64,000 nt of DNA from Paracoccaceae bacterium (GCA_022843025.1 JALHOL010000002.1:1-64000), one strand, 5' to 3'; numbered from the stretch's first letter, positions 21,981 through 49,056 are shown. The notes: generated by a model from the letters alone, not told the origin. Numbers and translations: made by a program.

Positions 21981-23843
21981 CTAGTGCGGGTCGAGGAATG
22001 ACTCATCCCAGACACGGTCGTTCTCGATCATCCAAGACCATATCTGAACCGCCTCGACGGTCTCGGCCGGCGTCAGAACAGCTTCGCCCGCATCAGCCTT
22101 CGCCTGATCAAACACGACCATTTCTGCCGCTTCCCCGGATCCTTTCGGTATCATCATGCTTACCCCGCTCACATCGAGTCTCGTCCCGCCATTGCGAATG
22201 GCAAGCGCGCGCGCTGAACGTCCGGGATCATTCGACAACAGTTTACGACCCAATGCCATGGCCGGACGCCAATCTCCCGAAAGAGCAAGTACGGTGGAAG
22301 CGATGTCAGAATGGCTTGCCGGTTCCCGGCTTTCACGCGGCGGCCCAATGACCGGATCACCGCCACTGATAATTGCCCCCGTGAACACCGTGTCATCGAC
22401 CGGAAGACCTGTCGAAATCGACTGATCCAGAAAGTTCGCGTGATCCCCCACAATGATGACGACCGTATTCTTCCATCGAGGCCTTGATTTCAGAAAATCG
22501 AAAGCCCGCTTCAGTTCTGCATCTACCTCCAGAATGGAGTGCGCGTAATTTTCGGCAAGGTTCGGTCCGGCTGTCCATCTGCCATCCGGCGCCGTGTAGG
22601 AATAAGGCAAATGGGGCTCCAGAGTGAGGAGGATGCCGAACAAGGGTCGCGCCGGGTCTTGTGCGTCTGACGTGGCGACCCATTGGTTGAACTGATCAAC
22701 CGTTACCCTGTCTTCTACGCCCAATCCCAGATCGGTCGACGCCAGGACGTCCTCGAACACGCCATAAACCCAATTCTCCTTGTCATCATAGCGAACGTCA
22801 TAGGTGATGATCCCTGTGCGGTAACCATTGCTTCTGAGGCGCTTGCCAAGACGGTCGAAACTCGTTGAAGCGTAGGCACCATCCAACCGTTTGACCGGAT
22901 GCATCCACGCCCCCGAAGATATGCCGACAAAGCCGGGGCCGGAAGGAAATCCATTTGACAGGAACCGCTGGAAGACCACGCCGTTCCTTGCCAGTTCTTC
23001 GATAGCAGGCACAGAGACGAGGTTCTGCCCTGTCGGATTGACAGGGCGCAAACTGGCGCCACGCAAGCTTTCTACGACAAAGATGAATATATCGGGCTTG
23101 CTGATCGGTTCCTTCGGCATGGACTCCCAACGGTAGACAAGCGGATAGTCTTCATCGACCCATGACGCACCCTCTGGCAGGCCAACAAAGGCGCGAATGC
23201 GCTCGGCGGCCTCTTCCTCTGACATCCTCAATCGCGTTCCATCAACGCCCATCGCCTCTGTCACGTAGTCGAATTCCACAGGGGGAAGCAGCGAACCAGA
23301 GGCCGTGTCAGCACCAAAGGCAATTGCCAAGCCGATCGCTGCTCCCGCCGCGGGATACGTCCAACGGACCGGCGTCAAATGCGGCTTCAGCCCGACGTTC
23401 CAAAACAGCAGCAGCATCCAGATCAAGTATGCAGCAAGCAACGTCACCGCCGGAAAAACCGCATACCAGTAATGGAAGACCGGTTTCCAGAAATAGTCTG
23501 AAAGAAACAACCCGGGCCCTGCGAAATGGGCAAGCGTGGAAGGGGTCAGCCGCTCCCCGATAATCGCATCCAAGATGGGGTCAGACAGGCTTAAAAACAG
23601 GCTAGCCGACAAAAGGACAAGCGCGATGGCCGTGACGCAAACCCGAAGAAATGTGACTCTGACGACCAACCAGAGCAGCAGAAAACAACACCCGAGAACC
23701 AAGGTGAACCCCACATGCAAAAGCACGGTCAGCAAAGCATTGGACGCGCTGTCGCCCTTGATGATCGCCGTAATACCCAACGCGGCAACCCGGAGTGTAC
23801 ATAGCAGGACCAGCGCGATGGTGATCGGATGCTTGAAATTCAT
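21981..23843 (-). CDS. LTA synthase-like membrane sulfatase-fold transferase
   Basis: A 620-residue membrane protein. About five transmembrane helices occupy residues 1-175, then an extracytoplasmic alkaline-phosphatase/sulfatase-fold domain. Landmarks are FIFVVESLRG near residue 260, the nucleophile region SNGFPSGPGFVGISSG, and the metal-binding VGDHANF. This is the architecture of lipoteichoic acid synthase, phosphoglycerol transferases (MdoB, OpgB) and lipid A phosphoethanolamine transferases, which move a phospho-alcohol from a phospholipid to a glycan or lipid. Its likely role here is adding a phospho-group to the island's glycan. CGGAG precedes the ATG. Confidence 0.82.
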   Translation of the reverse strand: MNFKHPITIALVLLCTLRVAALGITAIIKGDSASNALLTVLLHVGFTLVLGCCFLLLWLVVRVTFLRVCVTAIALVLLSASLFLSLSDPILDAIIGERLTPSTLAHFAGPGLFLSDYFWKPVFHYWYAVFPAVTLLAAYLIWMLLLFWNVGLKPHLTPVRWTYPAAGAAIGLAIAFGADTASGSLLPPVEFDYVTEAMGVDGTRLRMSEEEAAERIRAFVGLPEGASWVDEDYPLVYRWESMPKEPISKPDIFIFVVESLRGASLRPVNPTGQNLVSVPAIEELARNGVVFQRFLSNGFPSGPGFVGISSGAWMHPVKRLDGAYASTSFDRLGKRLRSNGYRTGIITYDVRYDDKENWVYGVFEDVLASTDLGLGVEDRVTVDQFNQWVATSDAQDPARPLFGILLTLEPHLPYSYTAPDGRWTAGPNLAENYAHSILEVDAELKRAFDFLKSRPRWKNTVVIIVGDHANFLDQSISTGLPVDDTVFTGAIISGGDPVIGPPRESREPASHSDIASTVLALSGDWRPAMALGRKLLSNDPGRSARALAIRNGGTRLDVSGVSMMIPKGSGEAAEMVVFDQAKADAGEAVLTPAETVEAVQIWSWMIENDRVWDESFLDPH

Positions 23844-24080
23844 TCAGACGGGCTCCGACGGTTTGATCTCACATTCAGACGCATAGATTGGGCCAATCCT
23901 TCCCACACGGTTACCCCAACCACCCCATCAAGACGGCGAGCTCTGCCCAGACCCGCTTTGCTATCTCTCCGCCGGTCACTGCCCGCGACACCGCTTGATA
24001 CTGAAGTTCCGGTATCGGTCTGGTTCCGTTTCCGAAAGCGCACGCCTGACCCCTCATGTGGCGCCCTCCACATTTTCCGG

Positions 24081-24971: not shown

Positions 24972-25216
24972 TTCTTGAAGTTCCTCTCAGCAATCGCAGA
25001 CCCGTCGCGCGGCTTCAAACAGGTGCAGCCTGACCAACCTTCGGCCGACATTTACCATTGTTGACTTGCGGCTGCCATTTGCAATAGCCCAGCGATCCGC
25101 TGCCCAAAGCAACAGAAGATGCATGACCGTCGTGCCCTGTCCCAGCCGCCCAGGCAGGTTGCCGGGCTCCGGCGCGTCTGTTAGCGTTTTGGTTCAGAAG
25201 CGTTCCGGGACCATCA

Positions 25217-26248
25217 ATGGATTTGCTGTCGCCACGTTTTGTCTTGAACGCCGTCCTCGATGAAATCGCCGAGAAACGTGGCGTATACTGGAAAAGCCCA
25301 AGCCTGCATCGCACCCACTATCTGGACGAATGCGCGCTGGCACTCCAAACCGATGGGTTCGGGGGCATTCCCTATGTGATGTGGGGAAAACACCGTGATT
25401 GGCGCGGCGATGCCTACCCCGCAACTGGTGGGCGGATCTTTTGGGTACGCGTAGATTCACTGGATGATTTCGTCCGCGAAGTCCTGCCGCGGATCCATGC
25501 CCCGGTCGTGCTTGTGACGGGGGCGTCGGATTATTCGCCATTGGAGTTTGCACCAAAAGCCACTGAGGCACTTCTGCAAAGCGAGATGATAAGCCACTGG
25601 TTTTGCGCCCAACCTGACTTTCCGGTCCTGCCAAAGAAGGTCACGCCGGTCCCGCTGGGATTGCCCTACCCATATCGCAACGACATTCACTTTGCCAAAC
25701 CGTGGTATGCACTGACCCGACACATCACCAAACGCTATGACATTGCAGCCCATGACCGAAGGCTTGCAATGCTCGTCCGCAATCGCGTGCCGCCCGAGCT
25801 GCGGCCACCTTTGGCATTTTGCGATTTTGCCTTGAACAACACCTCTCGCGATGGACGACTTGGCGAGACGCGGGCCGGAGTGGCGGAAGTTCTGAAAAGA
25901 TCAGGCTGCTGCGTTTTCCCGGAAAAGGCCATGCAGCCGATGCAGCTTTACAAAACCTATGGCGAATACGCCTTTGTCGTCAGCCCCTTCGGCCGTGCCA
26001 TGGACTGCTATCGCACCTGGGAGGCGCTGGTGATGGGCGCGATCCCGATTGTCCGCCGATCGCCACTGGAACCGATGTTCAAAGGCTTGCCAGTCGCGAT
26101 TGTCGATGACTGGAACGAAGTGACGAGCGAGCGGCTTGCGGAATGGGCCGAGCAGTTCAAGGACAGCTGGGAAGACAACGCCTCTCTTGAACGGCTGACG
26201 CTGGATCACTGGTTGAAGCGCATCCGTGCAGCAGGGCACCAGTCGTAG
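25217..26248 (+). CDS. Exostosin-like glycosyltransferase
   Basis: A 343-residue protein. The C-terminal segment YAFVVSPFGRAMDCYRTWEA followed by LVMGAIPIVRRSPLEPMF and VAIVDDWNEV matches the conserved nucleotide-sugar-binding end of exostosin/GT47-type enzymes (S-P-x-G-x-x-x-D-C-h-R-x-W-E-a-l-x-x-G-x-I-P-I). No signal peptide is seen, so it acts in the cytoplasm. It is the first of three rightward glycosyltransferase genes. Linkage and substrate cannot be read from sequence. Confidence 0.78.
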   Translation: MDLLSPRFVLNAVLDEIAEKRGVYWKSPSLHRTHYLDECALALQTDGFGGIPYVMWGKHRDWRGDAYPATGGRIFWVRVDSLDDFVREVLPRIHAPVVLVTGASDYSPLEFAPKATEALLQSEMISHWFCAQPDFPVLPKKVTPVPLGLPYPYRNDIHFAKPWYALTRHITKRYDIAAHDRRLAMLVRNRVPPELRPPLAFCDFALNNTSRDGRLGETRAGVAEVLKRSGCCVFPEKAMQPMQLYKTYGEYAFVVSPFGRAMDCYRTWEALVMGAIPIVRRSPLEPMFKGLPVAIVDDWNEVTSERLAEWAEQFKDSWEDNASLERLTLDHWLKRIRAAGHQS

Positions 26249-26393
26249 GAACCGGGGCAACGGGGTCTGATCTGACCCTGCAATCAAAGCATGTTGCCAT
26301 CAGAATTGGACGCCACTAGCCTTTGCCCCCGACGGTCAGCTTCGCCCTCTCGATTGACGTGATCTTCATCCACTTTGGTCAAGGGCCATTCGC

Positions 26394-27317: not shown

Positions 27318-27353
27318 TCTCAGGCGCGCTTCGGGGAAAGCCGAAACAAATTC

Positions 27354-28385
27354 ATGGAAAGCTCTGGAAGAATGCGGAACGCCGGTCAGCCACAGACACT
27401 GCCTGTCGTGCAAGAGTATCACAGGCCGCAAGTTGCGGTGATCATCCCCTATCACGACAATTATGCCGACTACGTCTTTGACGCGTTCCGGTCTGTCCAG
27501 CAACAGACCCATACGCATTTCACCTGCACGCTTGTTGACGACTGTTCCCGCAACGAGAACTTCGATGCCGCGCAGCGGGCTATCGCAAAGATTGCGGACG
27601 AACGATTTCGCTTGATCCGCTCGGACGAAAACCGAGGGCAGATCCCGGCGGTCTTTCTGGGTCTGGATGCGACCCAGTCCGATTTCGTGACCGTTCTTGA
27701 TCCGGATGACCGCTATGCACCGACCTTTCTGGAAAGGATGCTGGCGATCCACCTGAACCCGCGCCTGTTCTGCCCGATTGTCTCCTGCGACCAGTACTAT
27801 CTGAATCTGCGGGGTGGGATCATTACGGGAACCAGCGCCGATGACGGCGCAGAGGGGTTTAATCCTGAAACGCTCATGGCCGAAAGAACGATGTTCGAAT
27901 CCTTTGCCTTCCACCGCTTTGTTCCACCCGAGCAACCGGGTTGGCATTGGTCCTCCACGTCATCCATGATGTTTCGGCGGGCTGCCATGAACCTGCTTCG
28001 TCCGGTTAGAACGCTTGGATACAAGAACGCCTTCGACGACTATTGCGCCCAGGGCGCGCATATGATGGGCGGAAGCCTCTTCCTGCGCGAGCCGCTGGTC
28101 TATCGGGGGTTGCATGATAACAACGATTTTCTGAGGTCGTCGATCTTCTCGATGTATCAAACGCGCAAGAAGGATGACCGCACCTTTCCGCTCTATGTCT
28201 ATCGGATCGACGCTGTCGAAGCGTTCCTAGGCAATGGCGGGCTCGATGTCTTTGATGTCGACAGCGTTCGCGATCTGCTGCTCGCCCAGTTTCGCGGGCC
28301 GGAACTGCCGATGCTTCTGAAGGCGCTCCCGCAGGTGGCTGAAATGCTCGGCCTGAATGCCGATGATCCCGGCCTCTCAGCTTGA
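27354..28385 (+). CDS. Glycosyltransferase family 2
   Basis: A 343-residue GT2 with VAVIIPYHDNYADYV at the fold start, the nucleotide-binding LVDDCS, the metal-binding DPDD (VTVLDPDDRY) and a C-terminal extension of about 140 residues. No membrane helix. Its last 9 nt overlap the 3' end of the convergent downstream gene. It is close to the preceding GT2 (36 bp), so the three rightward genes look like one unit. Confidence 0.86.
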   Translation: MESSGRMRNAGQPQTLPVVQEYHRPQVAVIIPYHDNYADYVFDAFRSVQQQTHTHFTCTLVDDCSRNENFDAAQRAIAKIADERFRLIRSDENRGQIPAVFLGLDATQSDFVTVLDPDDRYAPTFLERMLAIHLNPRLFCPIVSCDQYYLNLRGGIITGTSADDGAEGFNPETLMAERTMFESFAFHRFVPPEQPGWHWSSTSSMMFRRAAMNLLRPVRTLGYKNAFDDYCAQGAHMMGGSLFLREPLVYRGLHDNNDFLRSSIFSMYQTRKKDDRTFPLYVYRIDAVEAFLGNGGLDVFDVDSVRDLLLAQFRGPELPMLLKALPQVAEMLGLNADDPGLSA

Positions 28386-29351
28386 AGACCCGGCCCCCGG
28401 CCGGGTCTGGCACAACCATCTGCCCGAAAAATGACGGATCATGATACTATTGCTGCGATTCTCATCCCCACCCGGGCCCCGATTGATAAGACCAAGGCTC
28501 GTCAACCGATAGCGACGTCGCAACAGTTTGGCTTGAAAGTTCGTGCGCCTTGCGGGGCAGACAAAGCGGGGGGCCCGGCAATGCGCGGCGAACCAGACAT
28601 CATCCACCAGACGCGCAGCCGACGGGGCACCTTCATACTGCGTGACTCCCGAAAGATCGAACTGATCAGGACGCACGATATATCCTGAAAATCCTTGCAG
28701 TATATCGACCTGAACTGCTTTCCGCAGGCGTCGCGCACGAATGGGTGACGGTGCGCGCATCAACAGGTTGGACCAAACCGTCGTCGGCCTGTCTGTCAGG
28801 TCTTCCGGAACGGACCATCCACTAAGCCCGAATGCAGCCTCAGGCTGCGCCCGCACCGCGTCAAGCAGGTCGGCTAGCACCGATCGGTGATAAATCCTGT
28901 CATCATCAACCACCAGAATGGGCTGCGACGGTGGCAAGCGTTTAAGGCTCGGCAAAAGCTTGGTTGCCGGGCCAAGATCCGGGCAAGGGTGGATCTCAAC
29001 CGCCTCTAAGCCCTTCAGGAATTCGGGCACGACGTAGGGCACACCTTCGCGCAGGCTCACCGACGGAATATTCAGGATGATCTTCTGCGGTGCCACACTC
29101 TGCCGCAAAAGGCTTTTGATCGTTGGCGCGATAAAGGGCAACCGGCTTGGGATTGAAGTCAGGGATACGACAGCGGCCGTTCGGTTGGAGTTCCTCGCCC
29201 AGGCCTTGTCGAGTGCGTGAAGCGACAGGCGTGAGAGGCGGAATTCTTCTGCAATGTCTGCAAGAAGCGTTTCACCCTCGAAAAAGTCATGAATGATTAC
29301 GGCCACTGCCACCGCAGCGCAGGCACCGACCAGAATGGCAATTGCGGTCAT
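28377..29351 (-). CDS. Membrane-anchored glycosyltransferase-like protein (GT-A, DDD motif)
   Basis: A 324-residue protein with one N-terminal transmembrane helix (TAIAILVGACAAVAVAVII). A GT-A-like domain follows: VVSLTSIPSRLPFIAPTIKS, then the probable metal site VVDDDRIY, and later QGFSGYIVRPDQF and VDDVWFAAHC. The order resembles bacterial glycosyltransferase-like proteins of unknown specificity. The ATG nearest the membrane helix was chosen; upstream ATGs exist without a ribosome site. It lies downstream of a CDP-alcohol phosphotransferase on the same strand. Confidence 0.65.
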   Translation of the reverse strand: MTAIAILVGACAAVAVAVIIHDFFEGETLLADIAEEFRLSRLSLHALDKAWARNSNRTAAVVSLTSIPSRLPFIAPTIKSLLRQSVAPQKIILNIPSVSLREGVPYVVPEFLKGLEAVEIHPCPDLGPATKLLPSLKRLPPSQPILVVDDDRIYHRSVLADLLDAVRAQPEAAFGLSGWSVPEDLTDRPTTVWSNLLMRAPSPIRARRLRKAVQVDILQGFSGYIVRPDQFDLSGVTQYEGAPSAARLVDDVWFAAHCRAPRFVCPARRTNFQAKLLRRRYRLTSLGLINRGPGGDENRSNSIMIRHFSGRWLCQTRPGAGSSS

Positions 29352-29430
29352 GTTCCCATCGATGATCGAGGTTTCGGTCCACATGCACGGCGCATGAGGC
29401 CCGCCTGATCCTTCCCGCCTGGGATCAGTT

Positions 29431-30108
29431 TCATTCGCGCGATGCCAATTGGCCGGACAGCGCCTGATCGCTCCGGCCTGCCTCACGCGCGCGGCGATCC
29501 GCCGCCATTAGAATGTGGCGGGCACGCAAAATGCGTTGCACCGCCGTTGCATGGCAAAGCAGCGCCAACCCCCAAAGCCCGACAGTCATCACAGAATGGG
29601 TCCCGACGTCCAACAAACCGCCAACCGCCGGCCCAAAGATCAGAAGGGCGCACAGATAGATGATGCGCTCTTGTCGTTCAAACAGGTCCGGCCACCCGTT
29701 ATTGTCGACCGGCACTTCAATGGCGGTGCGCGCCTTGGCATAGCTTGTCATCATCGCCCCCCAGAACGCGAGGAAGGCAGGCACCCAGGATGTCATGGTC
29801 AGGGCGAATGCCAGAAGGACCACACCTTCCTGATAGCGATCAATGACGGCATCAAGATACCCGCCGAAATACGACGTCTCACCCCGAAGACGGGCAACGG
29901 CACCGTCAAGCGAATCCGCGGCAAAGGAAATGGCCAGGCACAGGCCCAAAATGACCGGCTGTTCATGCAGCAGGAAGGCGCCGCAACTTGCCAGCACCAG
30001 CAAAAGCCCGATCAGCGTCACCTGATTGGCCGTGGCAATCCGCGCCAAGGGTTGCGCTGCGCGGTCCCACATTTTGTCGAGATGCGCTTTGTAAAGCCCG
30101 TCAATCAT
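29431..30108 (-). CDS. CDP-alcohol phosphatidyltransferase 1
   Basis: A 225-residue integral membrane enzyme with the complete CDP-alcohol phosphotransferase signature D65-x2-D68-G69-x2-A72-R73-x8-G82-x3-D86-x3-D90. It joins a CDP-activated lipid or polyol to an alcohol with release of CMP. Given a myo-inositol-phosphate synthase and a CdsA-like protein in the island, phosphatidylinositol-phosphate or another polyol-phosphate product is plausible; this is inference. AAGGA lies 8 nt before the ATG, which begins 1 nt after the stop of the FGGY kinase gene, so the two are translationally linked. Confidence 0.85.
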   Translation of the reverse strand: MIDGLYKAHLDKMWDRAAQPLARIATANQVTLIGLLLVLASCGAFLLHEQPVILGLCLAISFAADSLDGAVARLRGETSYFGGYLDAVIDRYQEGVVLLAFALTMTSWVPAFLAFWGAMMTSYAKARTAIEVPVDNNGWPDLFERQERIIYLCALLIFGPAVGGLLDVGTHSVMTVGLWGLALLCHATAVQRILRARHILMAADRRAREAGRSDQALSGQLASRE

Positions 30109-30109
30109 C

Positions 30110-31681: not shown

Positions 31682-31696
31682 TACCGGTCAAGTCAA

Positions 31697-33807: not shown

Positions 33808-33815
33808 ACGCACCC

Positions 33816-36140: not shown

Positions 36141-36316
36141 AAGGACGCTTGCTACGGTCGCAAGAGGTCCCGCCCAAACTGCGCAAGCAAACAGGCGTCT
36201 CGCGGTACTGGGTTCTGCGGTCAGCGTGTTTCTCTTGTGGCAATTTCGGGTTGAGTCGGCATTAACGAATGGTTAACACGAAACCAATTTAAAGTGACAG
36301 CCCGGCAGGAACCAAC

Positions 36317-37411: not shown

Positions 37412-37465
37412 TAAATCGGTCCGAGGGCGAAACGCTGCCTGTCCGGCCAAAACGCGGAACCGCGG

Positions 37466-38215: not shown

Positions 38216-38391
38216 TCCCCATGGCAACCCGGGCCGGTGTGTCGCAGGGACCCCACGAAGGGCTGCACATCATACAGTACTCTTTCATGCCGGTGGGAAT
38301 CTCCCCTATCGCATAAGCGTTAGAGCGATTTTTGAAATCAGTTGCCGTATCCGCTTTCAGGATAATGTCCTTGAACAAACATCGGAACACA

Positions 38392-40396: not shown

Positions 40397-40430
40397 GCTA
40401 GACGGGAATGGGTTTCCTACCGAGGTCACA

Positions 40431-41198
40431 TTGTCTATAGCCAGTAATCCATGCGCTGTCATCCTTGCTGCGGGCCGCGGAACCCGGATGGAAGGTTCTG
40501 CGGGCAATCGGCCCAAAGGGCTGCTTCCGGCGCTGGACAGAACCTTCGTATCAAGGTCGATCGACATACTGCGCGCCGAGGGCGTGACCGACATTCTCAT
40601 TGTGACGGGCTATGGCGCCACTTTCTTTGACTACGTGGCAAGCAGCTATGGGGGCGTGGTCCGTACTGTCTTCAATCCCGATTTCGAAACCAAAGGCACC
40701 ATGAGAAGCCTTCTCGCGGCGCTTGATCTTCCCATCGGTCCCTTTCTCGTGCTTGACGCTGATATCGTCTTCGAACGTCGGGCCGTACGCAGCTTGCTTC
40801 TCGACGATGCCGATAACGCGATAATGCTCAGTGGCATCGGCACTCTCGGTGATGAGTTCCTTGCCTGGAGCGAGGGCGATGCTTCGGGCAAGCGGCACTG
40901 GCTTCGATATCTGTCGAAACGTCGAACCGATCGGGATGATCCGCCGACAGGTGAACATATGGGCATCATGAAGATCGGTGCCGCACTTGCTCATGCCCTG
41001 CGCCGCTGGGCCGAACAGAACCCTTCTGACGCCGCCACCCTGCCCTATGAAAACTGTTTGCTGCCCTTGCTGGACCATCACGATATGGCGGCGGTGCATC
41101 TTCCCGATCTGATCTGGACAGAGGTCGACACGGCCGCAATGCTCGATCACGCGCAAAATGTTGTCCTGCCGAAACTCGCCTTGCTGGACGATTTCTAG
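40431..41198 (+). CDS. LicC-like CTP nucleotidyltransferase
   Basis: A 255-residue nucleotidyltransferase. The pyrophosphorylase signature AVILAAGRGTRMEG with PKG at residues 28-30, the metal site LDADIVFE, and the late YENCLLPLLD with WTEVDTAAMLDHA match LicC-type (phosphocholine) cytidylyltransferases and the related inositol-1-phosphate cytidylyltransferases. The substrate is inferred to be a phosphorylated alcohol, possibly inositol phosphate. I chose a TTG start with GAGG 5 nt upstream; an ATG 12 codons earlier has no ribosome site and would overlap the divergent gene. Confidence 0.8.
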   Translation: MSIASNPCAVILAAGRGTRMEGSAGNRPKGLLPALDRTFVSRSIDILRAEGVTDILIVTGYGATFFDYVASSYGGVVRTVFNPDFETKGTMRSLLAALDLPIGPFLVLDADIVFERRAVRSLLLDDADNAIMLSGIGTLGDEFLAWSEGDASGKRHWLRYLSKRRTDRDDPPTGEHMGIMKIGAALAHALRRWAEQNPSDAATLPYENCLLPLLDHHDMAAVHLPDLIWTEVDTAAMLDHAQNVVLPKLALLDDF

Positions 41199-41204: not shown

Positions 41205-42995
41205 TCACCTGGCGCGACGTGCATGACGGTTTCGGTTCCGACGACCGGAAAACAGGAAATCCCGAAGGGATGCGCGCGTGCGGCGATCAGTGGCAGAGTA
41301 CCCGCCCGATCGGGAATAGTGATGGCAGTGCAGAATGTCTTCCATCTGGCCATCACCTTTTTTCAGCACTGCTGGTTCTTCGACGAATGCCGTCCTCGTC
41401 AGCTGCACAATCCTGCGCAATTCCCCACCCTGGCCGTAAAAGTCCGAACTCTGCTGCACAAAGCGGTGCAGTCGCCCATCTTCATCGTGCCACATCCTGC
41501 CTGCGTTTCGCCCCGTCCCGTATGGGGCATCCAAGCCGATGCGGTCAGCATTGATCGGATGCGGTTCCAGCGGGTCAGTCGTGATGTCGTCACAGCTGAA
41601 GATTTCAAGATGCCTACCACCAGAGCCACGCGATACCGAAGTCAGCAGCCACCAGCGACCCTCGTGCCGGATGGCCACCGAGTCTGCGGCATCGACCCCA
41701 AGCAAAAGCCGCCGCGCCAGCGTCCAGCGGTCCGGCCATCTGACGCATTCATAAAGGTCCACCGTGCGGCGGTGGCTGGTCTCTGGGATCATGAAGAACC
41801 GGCCCAGATGCTCGAAAACGAACGGGAAGGAGGCATGACAATCGAAACCACCGCAGGGGTCCACCACCGCTATGTCCGACTTCTGACGGCATGACAGATC
41901 GGCATCCAGTGTGACGATCACCAGCCTTCCACGATCTCTGACGCAGGAAAACTCCTCGGCAAAGACCCAAAGGCCCGCATCGGTTGACCAGATGAATGGA
42001 TCGGCAAGATAGCCATATCGTGGTGTCGGCAGGGCCTTGTTTTGCTGCGTGGCGTGATCGGTGACCGAGACGATGAACTGCTCGATCACATGACGCCTGA
42101 ACCCGCCCAGCCTTGGGCCGAACCAGTGGCTTGCCCTCAGCCACAACCGATCCAGCCATTTATAGGTGGCATAATAAGCCCGCACCGCAAAATCGGCGCA
42201 AAACGGGATATTCGGGGCCACCTTGTTGCGCGAACTCATCCAGCGGATCGGACGGCGCGAACTGATGTCGATTTCTTCCTGCGACAGGTGCAGGGTCCCA
42301 TCCCTCACTGCCTTGAAGATCACCGCGCTGAGCAGGGCCTGATCAAATTTATGGTCGGCCAAACTGGCACTCGGCGGTGCGATTATCTCTTGTCGCAAAG
42401 CATAATCTCGCCAGTCCACTGCGATCTGGCGCGCCGCGGCGTGCCGGGCATCGAACCCGATCGCTCCGCTCACGCATTCGCCAAGGTGCCGGACCTCCAG
42501 CGGAACCTGCATCGCATCCAGCGACCTTGCATCGGCGTGCTGATAAAGCCGCGTCTGGCCACGCAGATACCAAAGACCATGGGCTCGCGCGGTGCGAATG
42601 GCGTGGTCTATGCTGCCCTTGAAAAGCGTCGCGCAATCAAACCACAGAACAACACCGTCGCTCTCAAGAACCTCTTCGGCCACCAGTACGGGCTTCCAGG
42701 CATAGTTGCGATTTTCCATGCGCAGATGGGGTGGCCATTGCCCGAACGGGAAAGGCTTGAAACTGCACCACGAAAAGCGCGCTTGCAGAGCTTCAAGCGT
42801 GCGTTCCGACAGGCCCAGATCGTAAACGATCCAGCTGTGGCCACCTTGCAGCCGCGCACGTTCCACCGATTTCAGATACTGCCAAAGCGTGCGCGCAAAC
42901 TTCTGATCCGCCGCAGTAAGGACCGTCGCAGTCAAATTCTGTGCGTCATGTGATATCAGACGATCGCCAGCAGGCGGCCGATCCTCAAAGCCCAT
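41205..42995 (-). CDS. Two-domain protein with GINT1-like beta-propeller
   Basis: A 596-residue protein. Residues 1-300 resemble a GT-A-like transferase (LTAADQKFARTLWQYLKSVE, YDLGLSERT, VVLWFDCATLFKG). Residues 320-560 match the beta-propeller named for plant GINT1: LADPFIWSTDAGLWVFAEE, HASFPFVFEHLGRFFMIPE, VDLYECVRWPDRW, RWWLLTS, RNAGRMWHDEDGRLHRFVQ. GINT1 glycosylates inositolphosphoryl-ceramide; in bacteria the propeller occurs with other enzymes. It overlaps the FkbM-methyltransferase stop by 11 nt and is the last gene of that leftward operon. Confidence 0.72.
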   Translation of the reverse strand: MGFEDRPPAGDRLISHDAQNLTATVLTAADQKFARTLWQYLKSVERARLQGGHSWIVYDLGLSERTLEALQARFSWCSFKPFPFGQWPPHLRMENRNYAWKPVLVAEEVLESDGVVLWFDCATLFKGSIDHAIRTARAHGLWYLRGQTRLYQHADARSLDAMQVPLEVRHLGECVSGAIGFDARHAAARQIAVDWRDYALRQEIIAPPSASLADHKFDQALLSAVIFKAVRDGTLHLSQEEIDISSRRPIRWMSSRNKVAPNIPFCADFAVRAYYATYKWLDRLWLRASHWFGPRLGGFRRHVIEQFIVSVTDHATQQNKALPTPRYGYLADPFIWSTDAGLWVFAEEFSCVRDRGRLVIVTLDADLSCRQKSDIAVVDPCGGFDCHASFPFVFEHLGRFFMIPETSHRRTVDLYECVRWPDRWTLARRLLLGVDAADSVAIRHEGRWWLLTSVSRGSGGRHLEIFSCDDITTDPLEPHPINADRIGLDAPYGTGRNAGRMWHDEDGRLHRFVQQSSDFYGQGGELRRIVQLTRTAFVEEPAVLKKGDGQMEDILHCHHYSRSGGYSATDRRTRASLRDFLFSGRRNRNRHARRAR

Positions 42996-43851
42996 AACGC
43001 AGCCGTCTGACCCCGCGCAAAACCGTCGGACGCGCGACCGCCTCGTCTATCACCTCATTCGCCATCGCGTCGTCCAAACTGGTCAACGCGAAGTTCCATT
43101 CCTCGCCAATCCTGCGGATGTTATAGTTCACGCCTTGGGCAAATTCTGCGAGTTCCGCTCCCGCCTCACTGCTCAATGCCTCGGCAAGGATCACCGGTCG
43201 GTCACGCGCGATAAGCTGGCGCGCGCCTTCCAGAACGTCCAGTTCGGCTCCTTCAACATCGATCTTGATCGCAGCAACACGGTTGAACGGCCAGACCGAA
43301 TTTGACTTGGAATTCAGATAGGGGAGCGACGGCGACGGCTGCATCAGACTGTCAAGCGGAATGCCGAATGCAGGCTGTGTGTGGTCGTGCTCGGCCGCCT
43401 CGATGCCATCACCCGAACACAGCGTGTAGTGACCCCATCGGTGCGGCATGGACAGGGTCCTTTCGGCCGATGTAACCGCAAGATTGCAGGGAACCACGCG
43501 CGACGCCGCGCCGTTCAGGGTGATATTCTGCACCAGACGCCCATATGTCAGGGCCGAAGGCTCGAAGGCCACGATCTTGCCAACCCACGACGATCTGGCA
43601 GCCACCAGGCTGAAGATCCCGGTATAGGCACCGACATCGACCAAGATCTCCCCTGCCCCGGCCTTCTGCGCAAGAAGCGTCCATAACCTCACCGAAGCCG
43701 CATCCGGATAGCTTCCAGCGTGGATCGCCTCGACAACATTGTCGTCATCGCCCCAGGGGTTCAGGACGCTTTCGATCAGAATGGGAACGTCATCCGCATA
43801 AACTTCGTTGATGACTAATTCCGGGCGCTGTACTTCACCGGCAGCAGTCAT
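42985..43851 (-). CDS. FkbM family methyltransferase
   Basis: A 288-residue SAM-dependent methyltransferase. The SAM motif is EILVDVGAYTGIFSLVAARS, followed by VAFEPSALTYGRLVQNITLNG and the FkbM hallmark AAIKIDVEGAELDVLEGA. Such enzymes O-methylate sugars or other hydroxyls. AAGGGGGG precedes the ATG, which overlaps the stop of the upstream GT4-GT2 gene as ATGA. It likely caps or decorates the island's glycan. Confidence 0.87.
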   Translation of the reverse strand: MTAAGEVQRPELVINEVYADDVPILIESVLNPWGDDDNVVEAIHAGSYPDAASVRLWTLLAQKAGAGEILVDVGAYTGIFSLVAARSSWVGKIVAFEPSALTYGRLVQNITLNGAASRVVPCNLAVTSAERTLSMPHRWGHYTLCSGDGIEAAEHDHTQPAFGIPLDSLMQPSPSLPYLNSKSNSVWPFNRVAAIKIDVEGAELDVLEGARQLIARDRPVILAEALSSEAGAELAEFAQGVNYNIRRIGEEWNFALTSLDDAMANEVIDEAVARPTVLRGVRRLRYGL

Positions 43852-46022
43852 TTCGCCCCCCTTGGTCCCAATCGTGAAAGCCAGATCACCAGCCTTTCCA
43901 TAAAGGCGCTGAACCGCGTGTTGCTTCGAATGAACCGCCCCAAACGTGTGTGGCCAAAGAATTCCGCCATGAAGGCAACTTCCGGTTCGTACTGATGATG
44001 CAGCATGTGAACATACCAGTCCGGCAGCTGTTGCCCAGCGCTTCCGCGCGGCGCCCGAAAGCATGCCATGGCAAGCTGCATGATCGGCGCTTGCAATGCC
44101 GGTGTGTGGATATGGGTAATGGCGATGTGTCGAAGTCGATCAAATTCGTCGATCGGGGTGCCAAAGTCGCGTTCGGTCTGCGCACGACGTCCGATCGCCT
44201 CAGCCGGAGAGACGACGATCCCAACCCCAAGCGCCACCGCGGCGCGGACAAAGGCCCAGTCGCAAAGATACCCTGTCTCCCAGCGAAAACCGATGCGCCG
44301 CGCCAGTTCGGTTCGGACGACAAGGCCGAATTCCGCATAAGTATTCGCGTCGTTGCCCGAGATTGAACCGTCACCCAGAATGGGGATCATCATGCCAAGG
44401 CCATCCGCCAACTGGTCAGTGTCACTATAGGTCCTGACCTGCCCGCAAACGATGCCGATGCCTTGGTCGCGCGCAAGGCATGCAGCCGCGTCGCGCAGGT
44501 AACCCGGCTGAACAATCGTTCCGCTTCGCAAAACAGCCACGATAGGTGCTTCAACCGCCCTCATGGCCATGTTCAGGGCCGATGCATATCCATGCGCCAC
44601 CTCCAAGCGGATGACCGTCACCTGCGGCAGGTCCGCATGCTCGAGATCCGCAAGAACCAGATCGCTTTCGGTATCCGATGATCCATCATCGACCACCACG
44701 ATCTCGGCAATCAATGGGCCTGCGGAAAACAGGCTTGCAAGGGTCGCCTGCAAAGCGGCCCCTTCGCTCTGATTGACCACTACAACGGCCAATCCCCCTT
44801 TCTCTTGAGATGCCGCCGTCACGGCAGTCACCGTCGGGGGAAAGTGCCACGCCGGGGGTGCCACCGGGGGTTCGGCAACGGCAAGCGGCCTGTCGATCTT
44901 GACGCAGCGCTGCAAGGCCTCTGAAAGCCCGCCGACACTGCCGTCGAAAGTGATGCAGTTCACCCCATCTTTCCACGGCGTGTCAGGTCCGAATGCCGGG
45001 TTGTTGTGGTTCGCGACCACGACCGCGCCAAGGGCAGCCGCCTCATAGGCGGCAAGGCAATAGGATTCAAACACAGTCGGAAAGACAACGATGCTGCCTT
45101 CCACAAGCTGGTCGCGTTCCTTTACGGAAAGTGGCCGAGGCAGGATAAACCGGTCTCTTTCGGTCTCAGGCACGGCATCCAGCACGGCACGTGCATAGGC
45201 GTTGTTGATGATCGGGCAGGCAAAGTTGATCGTTCCCGCATAACCCGGGGCAGTTTCCAGAAAACCGGCGGCGCCGCGGACAAAAATCTCCGGTCGCTTG
45301 ATCTCTTGCAGTTTACTCGAAAAGACGATGCGCTGCGCCTGACTGGGGATGGCGGATTGCGTCGCGCGTTTCTGGCCATTCAGGATCACCGGCGCATCGG
45401 CAATCACCAAGCGCCGCTCCCAACTGGCCGGGTCAATTCCGAACACGCGCCGCGTCACTTCGGCCACGGGATGCAGATGCCCGATGATCCGGTCGCAGTC
45501 CTTCAGGCAAATCCGCTCAAGATCATAGCGCACAAGATCTTGCGTCGCGAGAAGGCGGGATTCAAACAGCACCAGCATGGCTTCGGTCGAATGCAGCCGT
45601 ACCGCAATCGTCGCATCACTCAGGAAACCCGTCAGGCGTTTTTGTTGAATGGTCGCAAAGCCATAGCCGCTCCAGTCTGGAAATTCGACGTAATCGATCC
45701 TTTCCGTTCGCGACAGGCCTTGCAGCATGATCAAAAGCTTGACCGATGTCGCAAGCCAGCTTCCCGGACCTTGGACCGCCCAGGCCAGGTGCGGATCACA
45801 GGCGGAAAAGTCGTAACTATCCAGTTCAAGCAGCCCGCAGCCGCCAAACACCTCGGAGAAAGCGGCCTGCCCGACGGTTCCCGTTGTCAGAATGACAACG
45901 GTCCGCTGCCGGTTTTCCGCCGACATGGTTTTCAGAATGTTATACGTCAGACGACCGATGCCACCGGAGGTGAAGGGAAACACCTCGGTGGTCACGAGGA
46001 CGATCAGGCCTTGCTCTGTCAA
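43848..46022 (-). CDS. Bifunctional glycosyltransferase (GT4 + GT2)
   Basis: A 724-residue fusion. Residues 1-390 form a GT-B/GT4 enzyme (TTEVFPFTSGGIGRLTYNIL; SSKLQEIKRPEIFVRG; VFPTVFESYCLAAYEAAALG). Residues 410-720 form a GT2 enzyme (LAVVVVNQSEG; EIVVVDDGSSD; a C-terminal region rich in His and aromatic residues). In the GT2 half the usual DxD is LRSGT, so its activity is open to doubt. The start is a TTG overlapping the preceding stop (TTGA). It is in an operon with another transferase upstream and an FkbM methyltransferase downstream. Confidence 0.82.
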   Translation of the reverse strand: MTEQGLIVLVTTEVFPFTSGGIGRLTYNILKTMSAENRQRTVVILTTGTVGQAAFSEVFGGCGLLELDSYDFSACDPHLAWAVQGPGSWLATSVKLLIMLQGLSRTERIDYVEFPDWSGYGFATIQQKRLTGFLSDATIAVRLHSTEAMLVLFESRLLATQDLVRYDLERICLKDCDRIIGHLHPVAEVTRRVFGIDPASWERRLVIADAPVILNGQKRATQSAIPSQAQRIVFSSKLQEIKRPEIFVRGAAGFLETAPGYAGTINFACPIINNAYARAVLDAVPETERDRFILPRPLSVKERDQLVEGSIVVFPTVFESYCLAAYEAAALGAVVVANHNNPAFGPDTPWKDGVNCITFDGSVGGLSEALQRCVKIDRPLAVAEPPVAPPAWHFPPTVTAVTAASQEKGGLAVVVVNQSEGAALQATLASLFSAGPLIAEIVVVDDGSSDTESDLVLADLEHADLPQVTVIRLEVAHGYASALNMAMRAVEAPIVAVLRSGTIVQPGYLRDAAACLARDQGIGIVCGQVRTYSDTDQLADGLGMMIPILGDGSISGNDANTYAEFGLVVRTELARRIGFRWETGYLCDWAFVRAAVALGVGIVVSPAEAIGRRAQTERDFGTPIDEFDRLRHIAITHIHTPALQAPIMQLAMACFRAPRGSAGQQLPDWYVHMLHHQYEPEVAFMAEFFGHTRLGRFIRSNTRFSAFMERLVIWLSRLGPRGAK

Positions 46023-47209
46023 AGTTCAAGAAATTCCTTGTATCGTTCGAGGGATGTCCGATCCATCCGCGCGGTATAATCCCGGATCATTTCAAGGCGT
46101 TCCGGCTGGGGCAGCGCAAGAATGCCATCCAGCCGCCTTTGAACGTCATAGGGGCTATTGGGATCATCGACCTGCACGAGTCGCGCGTAGGCGTGGTCCT
46201 CCCCCGCATCCAGATTAAGCCGGCCGCGCAGGCAGGGCGTCCCCACGCTTTCGCTTTCCAGCCCAACCATCGGATGGCATTCGACAAGCGACACGTTAAG
46301 CGTGCATCCGACACGGGCCATCAAGCCAAAGGTCGCGGCACGATCTGTATAACTCGCCCGGCGCAGCTTTGCATTATAGGGCTGTGGCAGCTCAAGGTCG
46401 GGCGCATAATGCATGACCCGGGAAACGCGCGAAGACAGCGCGCCACCAAGAGCATTTACATGAAGGTTCTTGCGCCAGCTGTCGGTTCCCGGAAGAAAGA
46501 CAACATCATCCTGACGCCGACCTGATCCCACTGTCGAACGATGGATGGGCGCTGGATTGAACAGCATCGGCACAAAGGCCCGGTCACCGGCAAGCGGGCA
46601 GTCGCGCTGCATGAAATGAAGCCGCTTGATCTTGCTACTGTCGGCCAAGGCGATGGCCGCAAGGGCCGCCTTCCGTTCGTTCCGGGCCTCCCATTGTGCG
46701 ACATTCCCATGGTAGACCATATAGGCCAGGTCCGAAGCACCCGCCCGCGCCAGACGATCTATAAGCGTCTGCGACATGTCGGACAGACCGTGGAAGACCA
46801 CCTTCGAAATCTGCTCACGGGCCAGCAGTCCAAGGAACCAAGCCTCTTCCTTGCGGTCCAAAACGCCGGAAGTCGCAACAGCAAGTTTTCGCCCCGGCAA
46901 AGACCCCGCAGCGGCACGAATACCTGTCCAAGTCTGGCAAAACACATGCAGAACGCCGGAAAAAGCAGGGTCAGAATGGGCATATTTCGTGTCGACAACG
47001 CGATCCAGGGCAAGTCGCGGTTCGGCAACTCCCGGAAGAACGGTTCCGAACTCCTTTCCGGTGCGGACAAAGGGAAAAGGCCATCCAGTCTTGGCCGGCT
47101 TCTCCGCTTCCCGCCCAGTCCCACCCGGGGTAACAAGCTTCAATGCGCTAAGCAGCAACGACCGTTGAACTGCGTTTTCCACAGACTCCTCAGGGATCTG
47201 ATCAGTCAT
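46019..47209 (-). CDS. Glycosyltransferase-like protein (GT-B type, family uncertain)
   Basis: A 396-residue cytoplasmic protein. The second half has the order of a GT-B donor domain (DDVVFLPGTDSWRKNLHV, LMARVGCTLNVSLVECHPMV, ESESVGTPCLRGRL), similar to enzymes that choose a strong E-x-x-G site after a serine. The first half has no recognisable motif. It heads the leftward operon with the GT4-GT2 fusion, the FkbM methyltransferase and the GINT1-like protein, and is divergent from the sulfotransferase gene across 170 bp. Function is inferred from context. Confidence 0.6.
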   Translation of the reverse strand: MTDQIPEESVENAVQRSLLLSALKLVTPGGTGREAEKPAKTGWPFPFVRTGKEFGTVLPGVAEPRLALDRVVDTKYAHSDPAFSGVLHVFCQTWTGIRAAAGSLPGRKLAVATSGVLDRKEEAWFLGLLAREQISKVVFHGLSDMSQTLIDRLARAGASDLAYMVYHGNVAQWEARNERKAALAAIALADSSKIKRLHFMQRDCPLAGDRAFVPMLFNPAPIHRSTVGSGRRQDDVVFLPGTDSWRKNLHVNALGGALSSRVSRVMHYAPDLELPQPYNAKLRRASYTDRAATFGLMARVGCTLNVSLVECHPMVGLESESVGTPCLRGRLNLDAGEDHAYARLVQVDDPNSPYDVQRRLDGILALPQPERLEMIRDYTARMDRTSLERYKEFLEL

Positions 47210-47379
47210 TCGCCTTGCTCACCGGAGAAGCCCCACTCCGGCACCAAAAGGTACCTTCCCGCTGATGGCAAGGGCAATTTGGCGTTGCCGATTGAAGGCC
47301 CTACAGGATAACTGGTTTTGCTACTTGGGTTTCGCACAATCGGCGGCGGCACCCGGACACCAAAGCCGGAGCGTCCAAC

Positions 47380-49056
47380 TTGCCCTATGCCGTGGTCATC
47401 GCCCGCCAACGCTCCGGCACTTCGGCTTTTGGTCAGATCATCTGCAAAGGCCTTGGGCTGCAAGCACATGGCGAGATCCTTGATCCCGCCACAAAAAGCC
47501 CGGTCGTCAGCCAAGACGAAGGGGCCGTTACCTGGCCCCGGCTGCAACAGTTCCTGCAGCACCTGCACGAGGATCAGGCCTTTCACCTTCTCGATATCAA
47601 GGTGCAATCGCTCTCTGCCGTGAACCGGCCCTTCCGCAGCCCGGTCCTGCCACCAAGCATTGTGGATCTGTTTCACAAGCACCAAAGCAGGATCATCCGT
47701 TTGCACAGGCACCCGATGGCGCAGTGGGTGTCTGGGCTCATTGCATCAAAGTCCGGGATTTGGCATCAGCACAACAAGGATGAGGTTCACGCCGAAAAGG
47801 TCTGGGTGGACCCTGTCGTTCTTGAGAATTTCTTCGCCACATGCGCTAAGGAAGATGCCTTGGTCGCCGAATGGCTTAAAGGACTGCCAGTACTGGAGCT
47901 GTCCTATGACCAAGTCTTTGCGCGGCAAGACTATGCCGACATACTCGCCAAGGTCGCCGCATTCCTTGATCGCAAACCCGGACCTGACTGGAATACGGTT
48001 CGGCCATCCAGCCAGAAGATCGCAAAGCCTTCGCTGGCTGCGAACATCGAAAACCTCGCCGAAGTCACCTGCTTTCTGCCAATCAACGAGATCGTCCATC
48101 CCGATGGCTCAACGGCGGTCGATCCGTCCTTCAGCCTTGATCTCAAAGATTTCCCCAGCGAAGCACAAGGCCGGATCGCGGCCTGCGCGGGCGTCCTTCA
48201 GCAATTCATCGGCGGCGGTCTTCTCAGCGAAAACCACTTTCGCGACAAGGTTGTCCTTGATTGGGAATGCGGCGACGGTGCCTTTTCGGCCGCCTTTGCC
48301 CTGGGCGGCGCGCGCTTGGTTTTCGGAAGCGATCAATGGCTTGATGTAAAGCGTTTGCCGGCCGTTGTGCGCGCCTCGCCACTGTTCCGGTGCAGACAGG
48401 CCGCTATCAGGGACATTGAAGCCGAGCTTCGGGGATCAGTCGATCTTGTCTTCGCCAACACAGTCACCGAACATATTCCTGACCTGCCGGGCGCTTTCGC
48501 TTCCCTCTTCCAGGTCATCAAGCCGGGTGGATATCTGTTTCTCAATCACGACAACTACTATCAGCCGGTTGGCTCACACGATCATGGCTTCCTCAGATAC
48601 GGCGTGGGTGAAATCGTCCGGCAAGGCCCCGCTTGCTGGGATCATGGCGCGGACTGTTCGCTGTCAAAGCCCGTCCGCGAAGATGTTGCGCGGCGCTTCC
48701 CTTGGACATGGGACCACCGAAACGAGGCGCACTTAACACCGCCCGCCTGTGCCGACTGCCACTACTACAGGCGCTCTCAGCCATGGGCTCACCTGCTCTA
48801 CCAGGATGATTTCGCAAGCCTCTTTCCGCAGAACAGCTTTTCCACCGGCAAGCCCAACTCGTCGCTGAACAAGGTGACGATCTTTCAGCTGCGTCAGTTC
48901 CTGATTGAAGCCGGGTTTGAAATCGAAAAGGAAGAGCGTGCAATCGTCAGCAACCAGCCGCCAGACTCCCTGTTGCAGGGGCCAAATCAGTTCACGGCAC
49001 GCGACCTCAAAACAACCATGTACCGCGTCCTTGCCCGCAAGAAAGGTGTCGCCTGA
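47380..49056 (+). CDS. Sulfotransferase-methyltransferase fusion
   Basis: A 558-residue two-domain protein. Residues 1-230 resemble a bacterial sulfotransferase: the 5'-phosphosulfate loop RQRSGTSAFGQ at the start, and RIIRLHRHPMAQWVSG as the 3'-phosphate-binding strand. Residues 285-555 are a class I methyltransferase (VVLDWECGDGAFSAAFALGG, VDLVFANTVTEHIPDLPGAF, KPGGYLFLNHDNYY). Note W-E-C-G for the usual D-x-G-x-G. TTG start with GGAG 8 nt upstream; no earlier in-frame start exists before a stop. It probably modifies the glycan with sulfate and methyl groups. It is the last gene of the island. Confidence 0.78.
   Translation: MPYAVVIARQRSGTSAFGQIICKGLGLQAHGEILDPATKSPVVSQDEGAVTWPRLQQFLQHLHEDQAFHLLDIKVQSLSAVNRPFRSPVLPPSIVDLFHKHQSRIIRLHRHPMAQWVSGLIASKSGIWHQHNKDEVHAEKVWVDPVVLENFFATCAKEDALVAEWLKGLPVLELSYDQVFARQDYADILAKVAAFLDRKPGPDWNTVRPSSQKIAKPSLAANIENLAEVTCFLPINEIVHPDGSTAVDPSFSLDLKDFPSEAQGRIAACAGVLQQFIGGGLLSENHFRDKVVLDWECGDGAFSAAFALGGARLVFGSDQWLDVKRLPAVVRASPLFRCRQAAIRDIEAELRGSVDLVFANTVTEHIPDLPGAFASLFQVIKPGGYLFLNHDNYYQPVGSHDHGFLRYGVGEIVRQGPACWDHGADCSLSKPVREDVARRFPWTWDHRNEAHLTPPACADCHYYRRSQPWAHLLYQDDFASLFPQNSFSTGKPNSSLNKVTIFQLRQFLIEAGFEIEKEERAIVSNQPPDSLLQGPNQFTARDLKTTMYRVLARKKGVA

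Follow-up and report, generated by a model that had tools for sequence, protein, structure and literature searches.

Inositol lipid production has been called relatively rare in bacteria (PMC9246714), and the described systems closest to the gene island considered here, at positions 21981-49056 of a 64,000-nucleotide stretch from a Paracoccaceae bacterium (GCA_022843025.1, JALHOL010000002.1:1-64000), each resemble it in part. The window is that whole stretch, coordinates count from its first letter, and the genome that holds it is designated G000; here and below, a citation refers to excerpts of the paper concerned. The core of the island probably encodes an inositol-phospholipid-to-glycolipid pathway with its own exporter. 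In Bacteroides thetaiotaomicron, the cluster BT_1522-BT_1526 (Heaver et al. 2022, PMC9246714) places an inositol-phosphate synthase near a PIPS-type CDP-alcohol phosphotransferase, an arrangement found here within 29431-37411; it also includes a PgpA-family gene, of which the relatives of the island have a counterpart, and has a link to sphingolipids. The alternative cluster of Prevotella and B. vulgatus (PMC9246714) pairs a nucleotidyltransferase with a CDP-alcohol enzyme, comparable to the NTP and CDPOH2 genes here. The island differs from these clusters in its phosphotransferase CDPOH1 (59 bits against a cut-off of 350 for the PIPSynBT1523 model) and in possessing its own CdsA2, FGGY kinase, family 4 glycosyltransferase (GT4), Stealth protein and Frag1-ABC exporter, with LptF2 and LptG2 added in relatives; the window lacks PgpA, and no AUR1-like inositol phosphorylceramide synthase was among the Pfam matches of the window proteins scanned (the genome was not searched for one).

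The actinobacterial phosphatidylinositol and phosphatidylinositol mannoside pathway (PgsA1, PimA; PMC4634129, PMC6506517) follows the same logic from Ino1 to a PIP synthase to a PimA-type GT4, with the same pocket residues in the synthase, and the island's GT4 has PimA as its best match among solved structures. It differs in host group, and the island adds its own CdsA2, a second CDP-alcohol branch, ABC and (in relatives) Lpt transport, and a replacement of P153 by Q, L or M. In Caulobacter, the sphingolipid region has spt and LptC2/F2/G2 (PMC11324152), and the ceramide phosphoglycerate CPG2 depends on the cytidylyltransferase CpgD (PMC12275187); the loci of the relatives resemble this cluster in what may be a dedicated phosphosphingolipid, an spt-like gene, a second LptF/LptG pair and a cytidylyltransferase. 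In contrast, the head group of CPG2 is glycerate, INO1 and PIP synthase are not mentioned in the excerpts of these two papers (PMC11324152, PMC12275187), and the window genome has no second LptF/LptG pair. Archaeal IPCT-DIPPS and archaetidylinositol-phosphate synthase supply the top NCBIfam model for CDPOH1, under its cut-off, but the nucleotidyltransferase and CDP-alcohol enzymes are separate divergent genes here. The eukaryotic glycosylphosphatidylinositol (GPI) and glycosyl inositol phosphorylceramide (GIPC) lipids share with the island a parts list only, consisting of an inositol phospholipid (a predicted one in the island), a GINT1_N domain and a Frag1-family protein; no GPI transamidase or GlcNAc-phosphatidylinositol enzyme turned up among the scanned window proteins. 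No description of this cluster was found among the matches listed, which came from open-licence PMC papers.

The genes on which the comparison depends are as follows.

29431-30108, minus strand: CDPOH1, PIP-synthase-type CDP-alcohol phosphotransferase (PF01066), 225 amino acids from the ATG at 30108; core
30110-31681, minus strand: FGGY carbohydrate kinase (Pfam), directly upstream of CDPOH1; core
31649-32683, plus strand: Stealth-family transferase, CR2 and CR3 above cut-off; frequent partner
32629-33813, minus strand: GT4 glycosyltransferase, PimA/MshA-like; core
33816-36140, minus strand: ABC exporter of 774 amino acids with an N-terminal Frag1-like fusion; core
36317-37411, plus strand: INO1, inositol-phosphate synthase (PF01658, 8e-33); core
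37466-38215, plus strand: CdsA2, CTP_transf_1 family (5.5e-37), start codon unsettled; core
39665-40396, minus strand: CDPOH2, CDP-alcohol phosphotransferase (PF01066), 243 amino acids from an internal ATG
about 40395-41198, plus strand: NTP, LicC-like nucleotidyltransferase (PF12804, 1.8e-15), start unsettled, in the open reading frame (ORF) 40377-41198

Pfam and NCBIfam confirm nearly all of the genes named in the first-pass annotation. Genes were called as ORFs from the longest start, using a codon score that had been trained on 14 genes of the window, and their starts and some overlaps are rough; a longer ORF at 37408-38316 is in a different frame from CdsA2 and has no Pfam match.

CDPOH1 retains the CDP-alcohol motif D..DG..AR...G...D...D intact, with the four aspartates identical in 11/11 sequences. 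Its NCBIfam scores of 121.6 bits with archin_ph_syn (archaetidylinositol phosphate synthase; cut-off 180), 75.1 bits with PIPSynth (cut-off 170) and 59.4 bits with PIPSynBT1523 (cut-off 350) reach no equivalog cut-off, and by these scores CDPOH1 is a separate subfamily. In the PIP synthase of M. tuberculosis, residues R94, S132, K135, R137, R152, R155 and R195 are in the inositol-phosphate pocket, and R94 is retained in enzymes that use inositol phosphate (PMC4634129, PMC6506517). Pairwise alignment matches these seven residues to R91, S122, K125, R127, R145, R148 and R192 of CDPOH1, and the counterparts of R94, S132, Y133, K135, R137, R152, R155 and R195 are identical in all 11 CDPOH1 sequences. 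The position of P153, which contacts the diacylglycerol chain, is occupied by Q, L or M in the same 11, a hint that CDPOH1 may act on another lipid. An AlphaFold2 model of CDPOH1 (mean pLDDT 88.1) matches 19 Protein Data Bank (PDB) chains at E<=0.001, all of them PIP synthase, IPCT-DIPPS or AF2299 (a CDP-alcohol phosphotransferase whose PDB listing names no substrate), and the next structural match is phosphatidylglycerophosphate synthase at E 0.0018. In sequence and in model, CDPOH1 looks like an enzyme that joins a CDP-lipid to inositol phosphate. Because this active site is of the inositol-phosphate type, an inositol-phosphate lipid is the best reading of the island; genomics and the conserved active site give it good support, and the chemistry of the product is a prediction.

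The distribution of the genes across genomes points the same way. The family sample consists of 295 genomes, nearly each from its own genus, and the species are not independent. INO1 is present in 12 of these genomes (12/294 genera) and CDPOH1 in 13 at E<=1e-15, of which 11 are strong matches (E<=6e-53) and two are weak (G213 and G223, about 1e-16). The two genes occur together in 11/295 genomes, which are all 11 of the genomes with strong CDPOH1 matches (Fisher p 3.9e-19 with strong matches only, 3.0e-17 with the weak ones included); CDPOH2 is present in eight genomes, all of which have INO1. In a class sample of 385 genomes, the CDPOH1 profile was found in 11, all of them within the 33 that have INO1 (p 3.2e-13); the two samples share at least five genomes, two of them positive (G000 and G242). 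The gene set is not a chance mix. The first-pass annotation had proposed to look for co-occurrence of the synthase with its partners, and this is what was found: INO1 and CDPOH1 share their genomes, and the LicC-like gene, CDPOH2 and Frag1-ABC travel along.

When 13-60 kb around INO1 were fetched from the other 11 INO1 genomes of the family, ten of them (not G323) showed, with gaps and losses, the order AOS - DUF4833 - INO1 - SDR - CdsA2 - LptF2 - LptG2 - (NTP/CDPOH2) - GT4 - (desaturase-like, Stealth) - FGGY - CDPOH1 - Frag1 - ABC, where AOS is an alpha-oxoamine synthase resembling serine palmitoyltransferase and SDR a short-chain reductase. The cluster genes of these ten genomes are spread over one to three loci each: G158, G184 and G314 carry an FGGY-CDPOH1-ABC module elsewhere, accompanied by Frag1 except in G184, and an NTP-CDPOH2-GT4-Stealth module lies elsewhere in G314. 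In the window and the ten genomes together, INO1, CdsA2, GT4, FGGY, CDPOH1 and ABC are present in 11/11, and Frag1 in 10/11 (not found in G184). On contig C6 of G323 (L056), INO1 is 59% identical to that of the window, and among the cluster genes searched for, the only other match there is to FGGY, at 27% identity.

A wider set of 80 loci was kept from 85 relatives obtained by scanning named genomes with a CDPOH1 alignment; counts from it are lower bounds, as detection is limited by the E-value thresholds chosen, by flanks of 10 kb and by contig ends. The relatives are Shimia, Stappia, Mesorhizobium, Pseudooceanicola, Maritimibacter, Salinihabitans, Thiosulfatihalobacter, Hongsoonwoonella, and metagenome-assembled genomes (MAGs) of Hyphomicrobiales and other alphaproteobacteria. 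Within 10 kb of CDPOH1 were found FGGY (64 loci), GT4 (58), CdsA2 (53), LptF2 and LptG2 (51 each), ABC (47), Frag1 (44), SDR (43), NTP (37), INO1 (34), Stealth (32), CDPOH2 (31), DUF4833 (26), AOS (22), the gene at 28377-29486 (12), the desaturase (12), the GINT1-like gene (10) and the RXYLT1-like gene (6). In the 34 loci that hold INO1, CdsA2 and FGGY occur in 33 each, GT4 in 32, LptF2, LptG2 and SDR in 30 each, and ABC and Frag1 in 29 each. The link to the serine-palmitoyltransferase-like enzyme, the SDR, the second LptF/LptG pair and DUF4833, as well as the occurrence of the cluster in Stappia, Shimia, Pseudooceanicola and MAGs of Hyphomicrobiales, lie outside the window and were not visible to the first-pass annotation. 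That annotation had proposed an inositol-phospholipid anchor or an inositol-phosphate-decorated glycan; the lipid part is strengthened by co-occurrence and by the active site of CDPOH1, and the phosphoglycan part depends on Stealth, present in 32 of the 80 loci.

The remaining core proteins may be compared to characterized families as follows. INO1 is matched best among NCBIfam models by mycothiol_INO1 (388.7 bits against a cut-off of 638) and in the PDB by the inositol-3-phosphate synthase 1gr0, which we take to be from M. tuberculosis. GT4 aligns over residues 2-364, nearly its full length, with residues 20-368 of PimA (2gej, 82 bits), its best PDB match, and its best NCBIfam model, MshA, scores 77.8 bits against a cut-off of 462.5 and covers residues 198-381 only. 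CdsA2 is an extra CTP_transf_1 copy in the window genome, which has two such genes; there is one in each of three congeners, and among the ten cluster genomes there are three in G097 and two in each of the others. The C-terminal motif of CdsA2 is QGG..D..D in the window and ten relatives, where the canonical CdsA motif is presumably HGG.DR.D. In 56/56 measured loci the FGGY gene immediately precedes CDPOH1 on the same strand, with a four-base overlap in 14; the substrate of this kinase is the least certain step of the scheme below. The Frag1 match in the exporter (23.0 bits) is under the cut-off of 30.3, and the Frag1 gene of relatives matches the exporter gene at 4.8e-7. Frag1 and ABC are separate neighbouring genes in most relatives and a single gene in the window, a fusion that supports a joint function. 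PGAP2 presumably belongs to the Frag1 family.

The NTP and CDPOH2 genes diverge from a common start region in the window and are divergent neighbours in 28 of the 29 loci that have both. CDPOH2 has an intact CDP-alcohol signature motif; the arginine directly after the fourth aspartate, which would be expected in an enzyme of the inositol-phosphate type, is missing (the sequence reads ...LDFASDILWR). Two PDB proteins alone match it at E<=1, choline/ethanolaminephosphotransferase 1 (0.0012) and cholinephosphotransferase 1 (0.085). Because of the missing arginine and these matches, CDPOH2 is more likely to move a phospho-alcohol from a CDP-activated donor, CDP-X, of which NTP would be the natural source. 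The two best PDB matches of NTP are a nucleotidyltransferase/aminotransferase (6pd1) and a CTP:phosphocholine cytidylyltransferase (1jyk), which we take to be PntC and LicC, respectively. At one of the loci of the nearest relatives (L058:11411-11944, minus strand), a LicD-family gene (PF04991, 1.1e-14) lies near CDPOH2 and NTP, which suggests that a choline- or polyol-type donor may serve as CDP-X.

The lipid backbone can be approached through the relatives. AOS from L022 has serine palmitoyltransferase as its best PDB match (229 bits; KBL 214; the entries 8guh and 3a2b are presumably from Sphingobacterium) and bioF as its best NCBIfam model (324 bits; serine palmitoyltransferase models 202-291), none above cut-off. 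A close AOS was found in eight of the ten cluster genomes (the query genome G236 and others at 63-77%), split over two contig ends in G133 and unlinked in G184; G128 has a homologue at only 39%, and G278 has none at E<=1e-20. The SDR beside AOS would suit a reduction after the AOS step, and because the operon holds both a serine-palmitoyltransferase-like enzyme and a reductase, the backbone in the relatives is probably of a sphingoid type. The absence of AOS from G278 and its presence within 10 kb of CDPOH1 in only 22/80 loci speak against a simple sphingolipid rule. At L059:10654-13133 (plus strand), an acyltransferase, an acyl carrier protein (ACP) and a ketoacyl synthase stand directly behind CDPOH1 instead of AOS, possibly for dedicated chain building for the lipid.

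In the window, tblastn detected no match at E<=1e-3 to remnants of AOS, SDR, DUF4833, LptF2 or LptG2. Contig C5 of G000 has an AOS homologue (42%) beside polyketide synthase reductase and ACP domains, and an SDR homologue (48%) about 13 kb away. This locus (L046:16253-19989, minus strand; L046:12613-14129, plus strand; L047:10346-11104, plus strand), which by eye has a polysaccharide ABC exporter pair and presumably resembles rkp capsule-lipid loci, could supply a sphingoid-like chain. DUF4833 (PF16117) is present in 10 of the 12 INO1 genomes (missing from G000 and G323) and in none of 14 control genomes; the gene (L022:9359-9979 and relatives) lies directly before INO1 in many relatives and by eye encodes a signal peptide. 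Each of the ten cluster genomes has four LptF/LptG genes, whereas G000, G323 and two congeners have two. A PgpA-like gene is present in 30/80 loci, with Pfam confirmation in 4/4 tested; it is within 20 bases of CdsA2 in 16 of the 53 CdsA2 loci and within 400 bases of CDPOH1 in 13 Mesorhizobium loci and in L132. The first-pass annotation saw no inositol-phosphate phosphatase in the window, and indeed tblastn with 6 of the 30 PgpA-like proteins as queries returned nothing below E 0.5 there; the only PF04608 (PgpA) gene of G000 is on contig C7, not on the contig of the island.

From the observed gene content, family membership, conserved co-occurrence and active-site residues, a pathway can be drawn in which all substrates, the sequence of reactions, the lipid backbone and the final location of the product are predictions. 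INO1 would convert glucose 6-phosphate to inositol phosphate, CdsA2 would activate a dedicated lipid phosphate with CTP, and CDPOH1 would combine the CDP-lipid with inositol phosphate to give a lipid-phosphoinositol-phosphate. The PimA/MshA-like GT4 may then place the first sugar onto inositol, while NTP would make CDP-X and CDPOH2 would transfer from it a second phospho-alcohol. Stealth is predicted to add a sugar 1-phosphate, the GINT1-like protein and other glycosyltransferases to complete the head group, and Frag1-ABC to take the lipid across the inner membrane; in relatives, LptF2 and LptG2 would carry the product towards the outer membrane.

Several observations weigh against this scheme. 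INO1, CDPOH1, GT4 and NTP all miss their NCBIfam cut-offs; CDPOH1 is missing at threshold from 22 of the 33 INO1-positive genomes of the class sample; and the twelfth INO1 genome of the family, G323, lacks CDPOH1 as well as the cluster and nevertheless has two CTP_transf_1 genes. The FGGY kinase is the closest partner of CDPOH1, yet the scheme has no need of it. The window contains no dedicated phosphatase for the PIP-type product, and PgpA is single-copy in the 15/15 family genomes checked. The window genome also lacks DUF4833 and LptF2/LptG2, so that its pathway differs from the one in the relatives. In 13 of the 80 CDPOH1 loci, all from Mesorhizobium, every other cluster gene is missing within 10 kb. 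No inositol-lipid measurement for these organisms was found in the literature searched. The 13 Mesorhizobium loci (L094, L099, L102, L108, L110-L114, L119, L120, L127 and L135) have a PgpA-like neighbour of CDPOH1, a pair that may serve a simpler inositol lipid or have some other use.

One alternative is that CDPOH1 uses another polyol phosphate produced by the FGGY kinase, such that the lipid carries a head group other than inositol beside the phosphodiester, and INO1 serves the NTP/CDPOH2 branch by way of CDP-inositol. The constant position of FGGY immediately upstream of CDPOH1 and the resemblance of NTP to CTP:phosphocholine cytidylyltransferase are consistent with this, and CDP-inositol was proposed for a comparable pair by Heaver et al. 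(PMC9246714). However, INO1 tracks CDPOH1 (11/295) more closely than CDPOH2 (8/295); G278, G242 and G128 have INO1 and CDPOH1 with no CDPOH2 match; and the inositol-phosphate pocket is kept in CDPOH1, whereas CDPOH2 lacks the arginine after the fourth aspartate, all of which makes a different polyol somewhat unlikely. A CDP-inositol route, one of two options favoured in the first-pass annotation, is not the preferred one for CDPOH1, an apparent CDP-lipid and inositol-phosphate type of enzyme; a CDP-X route may still apply to NTP and CDPOH2. It is unlikely that the island instead encodes a capsule or an O-antigen, with inositol phosphate just one constituent of a secreted polysaccharide, phosphodiester side groups added by the CDP-alcohol enzymes and Stealth, and no inositol lipid anchor. 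The window does have several glycosyltransferases, Stealth and methyltransferases in a variable tRNA-side position that fits surface-glycan loci, and minor amounts of inositol have been reported in a Bacteroides capsule (Heaver et al., PMC9246714), but it is the lipid machinery (CdsA2, LptF2, LptG2) and not most of the glycosyltransferases that is conserved across the 80 loci, where nine accessory genes were not found. PIP synthases, to which CDPOH1 is similar, use a CDP-lipid as donor, and no Wzx/Wzy-type flippase or polymerase is among the Pfam matches of the scanned window proteins, the gene at 38392-39675 having no assignment.

Decay of the relatives' sphingolipid cluster to a non-functional fragment would explain why AOS, SDR, DUF4833, LptF2 and LptG2 are missing from the window, and DUF4833 and the second Lpt pair from the genome. 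This is quite unlikely, given that the core genes are open frames with motifs conserved where tested, that Frag1-ABC could manage without Lpt, and that the core is kept in G128 and G278, whose loci are likewise without AOS and SDR. A soluble thiol pathway like that of mycothiol, with INO1 and an MshA-like GT4 producing GlcNAc-inositol, is suggested by the names of the best NCBIfam models and is highly improbable: both scores are far under their cut-offs, the MshA model covers about half of the GT4 that PimA matches nearly throughout, no MshB, MshC or MshD family turned up among the scanned window proteins, and the strict partner of INO1 is a membrane CDP-alcohol enzyme. The mycothiol-like pathway was set aside on the sub-cut-off scores and the better match of GT4 to PimA.

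The predicted inositol-phospholipid island stands, as the first-pass annotation had described, between tRNA-Ser and a kinase gene. The features at its edges and those that accompany the core are as follows.

21832-21921, plus strand: tRNA-Ser(cga), the sole tRNA gene in the window (tRNA search and Rfam), left edge of the variable region
21981-23843, minus strand: sulfatase-domain enzyme (Pfam), presumably LTA-synthase-like; local cargo
25217-26248, plus strand: weak RXYLT1_C-like gene, below cut-off; accessory
28377-29486, minus strand: gene with no Pfam match, glycosyltransferase-like by eye; accessory
38392-39675, minus strand: gene with no Pfam match, multi-pass membrane protein by eye; local (0/80 loci)
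41205-42995, minus strand: GINT1_N protein (2.6e-24) with a weak DUF1647-like N-terminal region; accessory
42985-49056, no single strand given: local cargo (0/80 loci), comprising an FkbM methyltransferase, a GT2 protein with a weak GT4 part, a gene with no Pfam match and a sulfotransferase-like/methyltransferase fusion
49338-51065, plus strand: histidine kinase (domain search), right neighbour

At the set thresholds, none of the 80 related loci yielded any of nine window genes (the LTA-synthase-like gene, an epimerase, the FkbM methyltransferase and six other accessory genes), which therefore look like local cargo. The LTA-synthase-like gene was rejected as a member of the system on the same count, leaving no support for the earlier idea that its product adds phosphodiester links. 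The GINT1_N protein aligns over its full length with proteins of L057 and L073 (43 and 38% identity). The fusion protein at 47380-49056 (plus strand) has a weak sulfotransferase-like N-terminus (E 0.0042, below cut-off) and a methyltransferase C-terminus.

The GC content is about 64-68% to the left of tRNA-Ser and 52-61% from about 22 to 53 kb, and mean third-position GC is 0.656 in 21 island genes and 0.778 in nine flank genes. PF01658 (INO1) was not found in the 17/17 same-genus genomes searched. The genes to the left of the tRNA are syntenic in the 4/4 congeners fetched (matches about 50-98% identical), but in the three congeners whose contig continues (about 11 kb fetched) the island genes do not follow the tRNA, with only weak ABC and partial kinase matches. 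A tree of 72 CDPOH1 proteins joins the window sequence to three sequences from MAGs (two of Hyphomicrobiales and one of Alphaproteobacteria; support 98/91). It falls outside a group of 64 rows that unites rhodobacteral, Stappiaceae and Mesorhizobium sequences, and because it is on a long branch its exact place is unsure. The simplest reading is that the island was gained horizontally. A search of the window for a second copy of the 3′ end of tRNA-Ser returned only the tRNA itself.

If the inositol-phosphate lipid is indeed the product, its pathway might tentatively be viewed as an independent alphaproteobacterial counterpart of the eukaryotic GIPC/GPI idea, a doubtful proposal in which a CTP-activating enzyme reserved for this task and a transferase of the PIP-synthase type would make an inositol-phosphate (sphingo)lipid. 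PimA-, Stealth- and GINT1-like proteins would glycosylate it, Frag1 (PGAP2/Cwh43-like) coupled to the ABC exporter would remodel or flip it, and in relatives a private Lpt pair would bring it to the surface, maybe beside or replacing lipopolysaccharide. PGAP2 and CWH43 act in GPI lipid remodelling (PMC7125958, PMC6678536). A lipid resembling phosphatidylinositol dihydroceramide has been described in the alphaproteobacterium Novosphingobium acidiphilum, which has no homologues of either Bacteroides cluster (Heaver et al., PMC9246714). The gene set is a testable candidate for orphan inositol lipids such as this one. If the reading is true, an inositol-headed lipid of a kind better known from eukaryotes, actinobacteria and gut Bacteroides would also be made by alphaproteobacteria. 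The conserved cluster seems to have moved between lineages, with occurrences in Shimia, Stappia, Pseudooceanicola and MAGs of Hyphomicrobiales. It would represent a second Gram-negative branch of inositol lipid production, one that has separate enzymes and, in the relatives, dedicated Lpt permeases, and would give a bacterial setting for Frag1-family proteins, DUF4833 and GINT1_N domains beside an inositol lipid.

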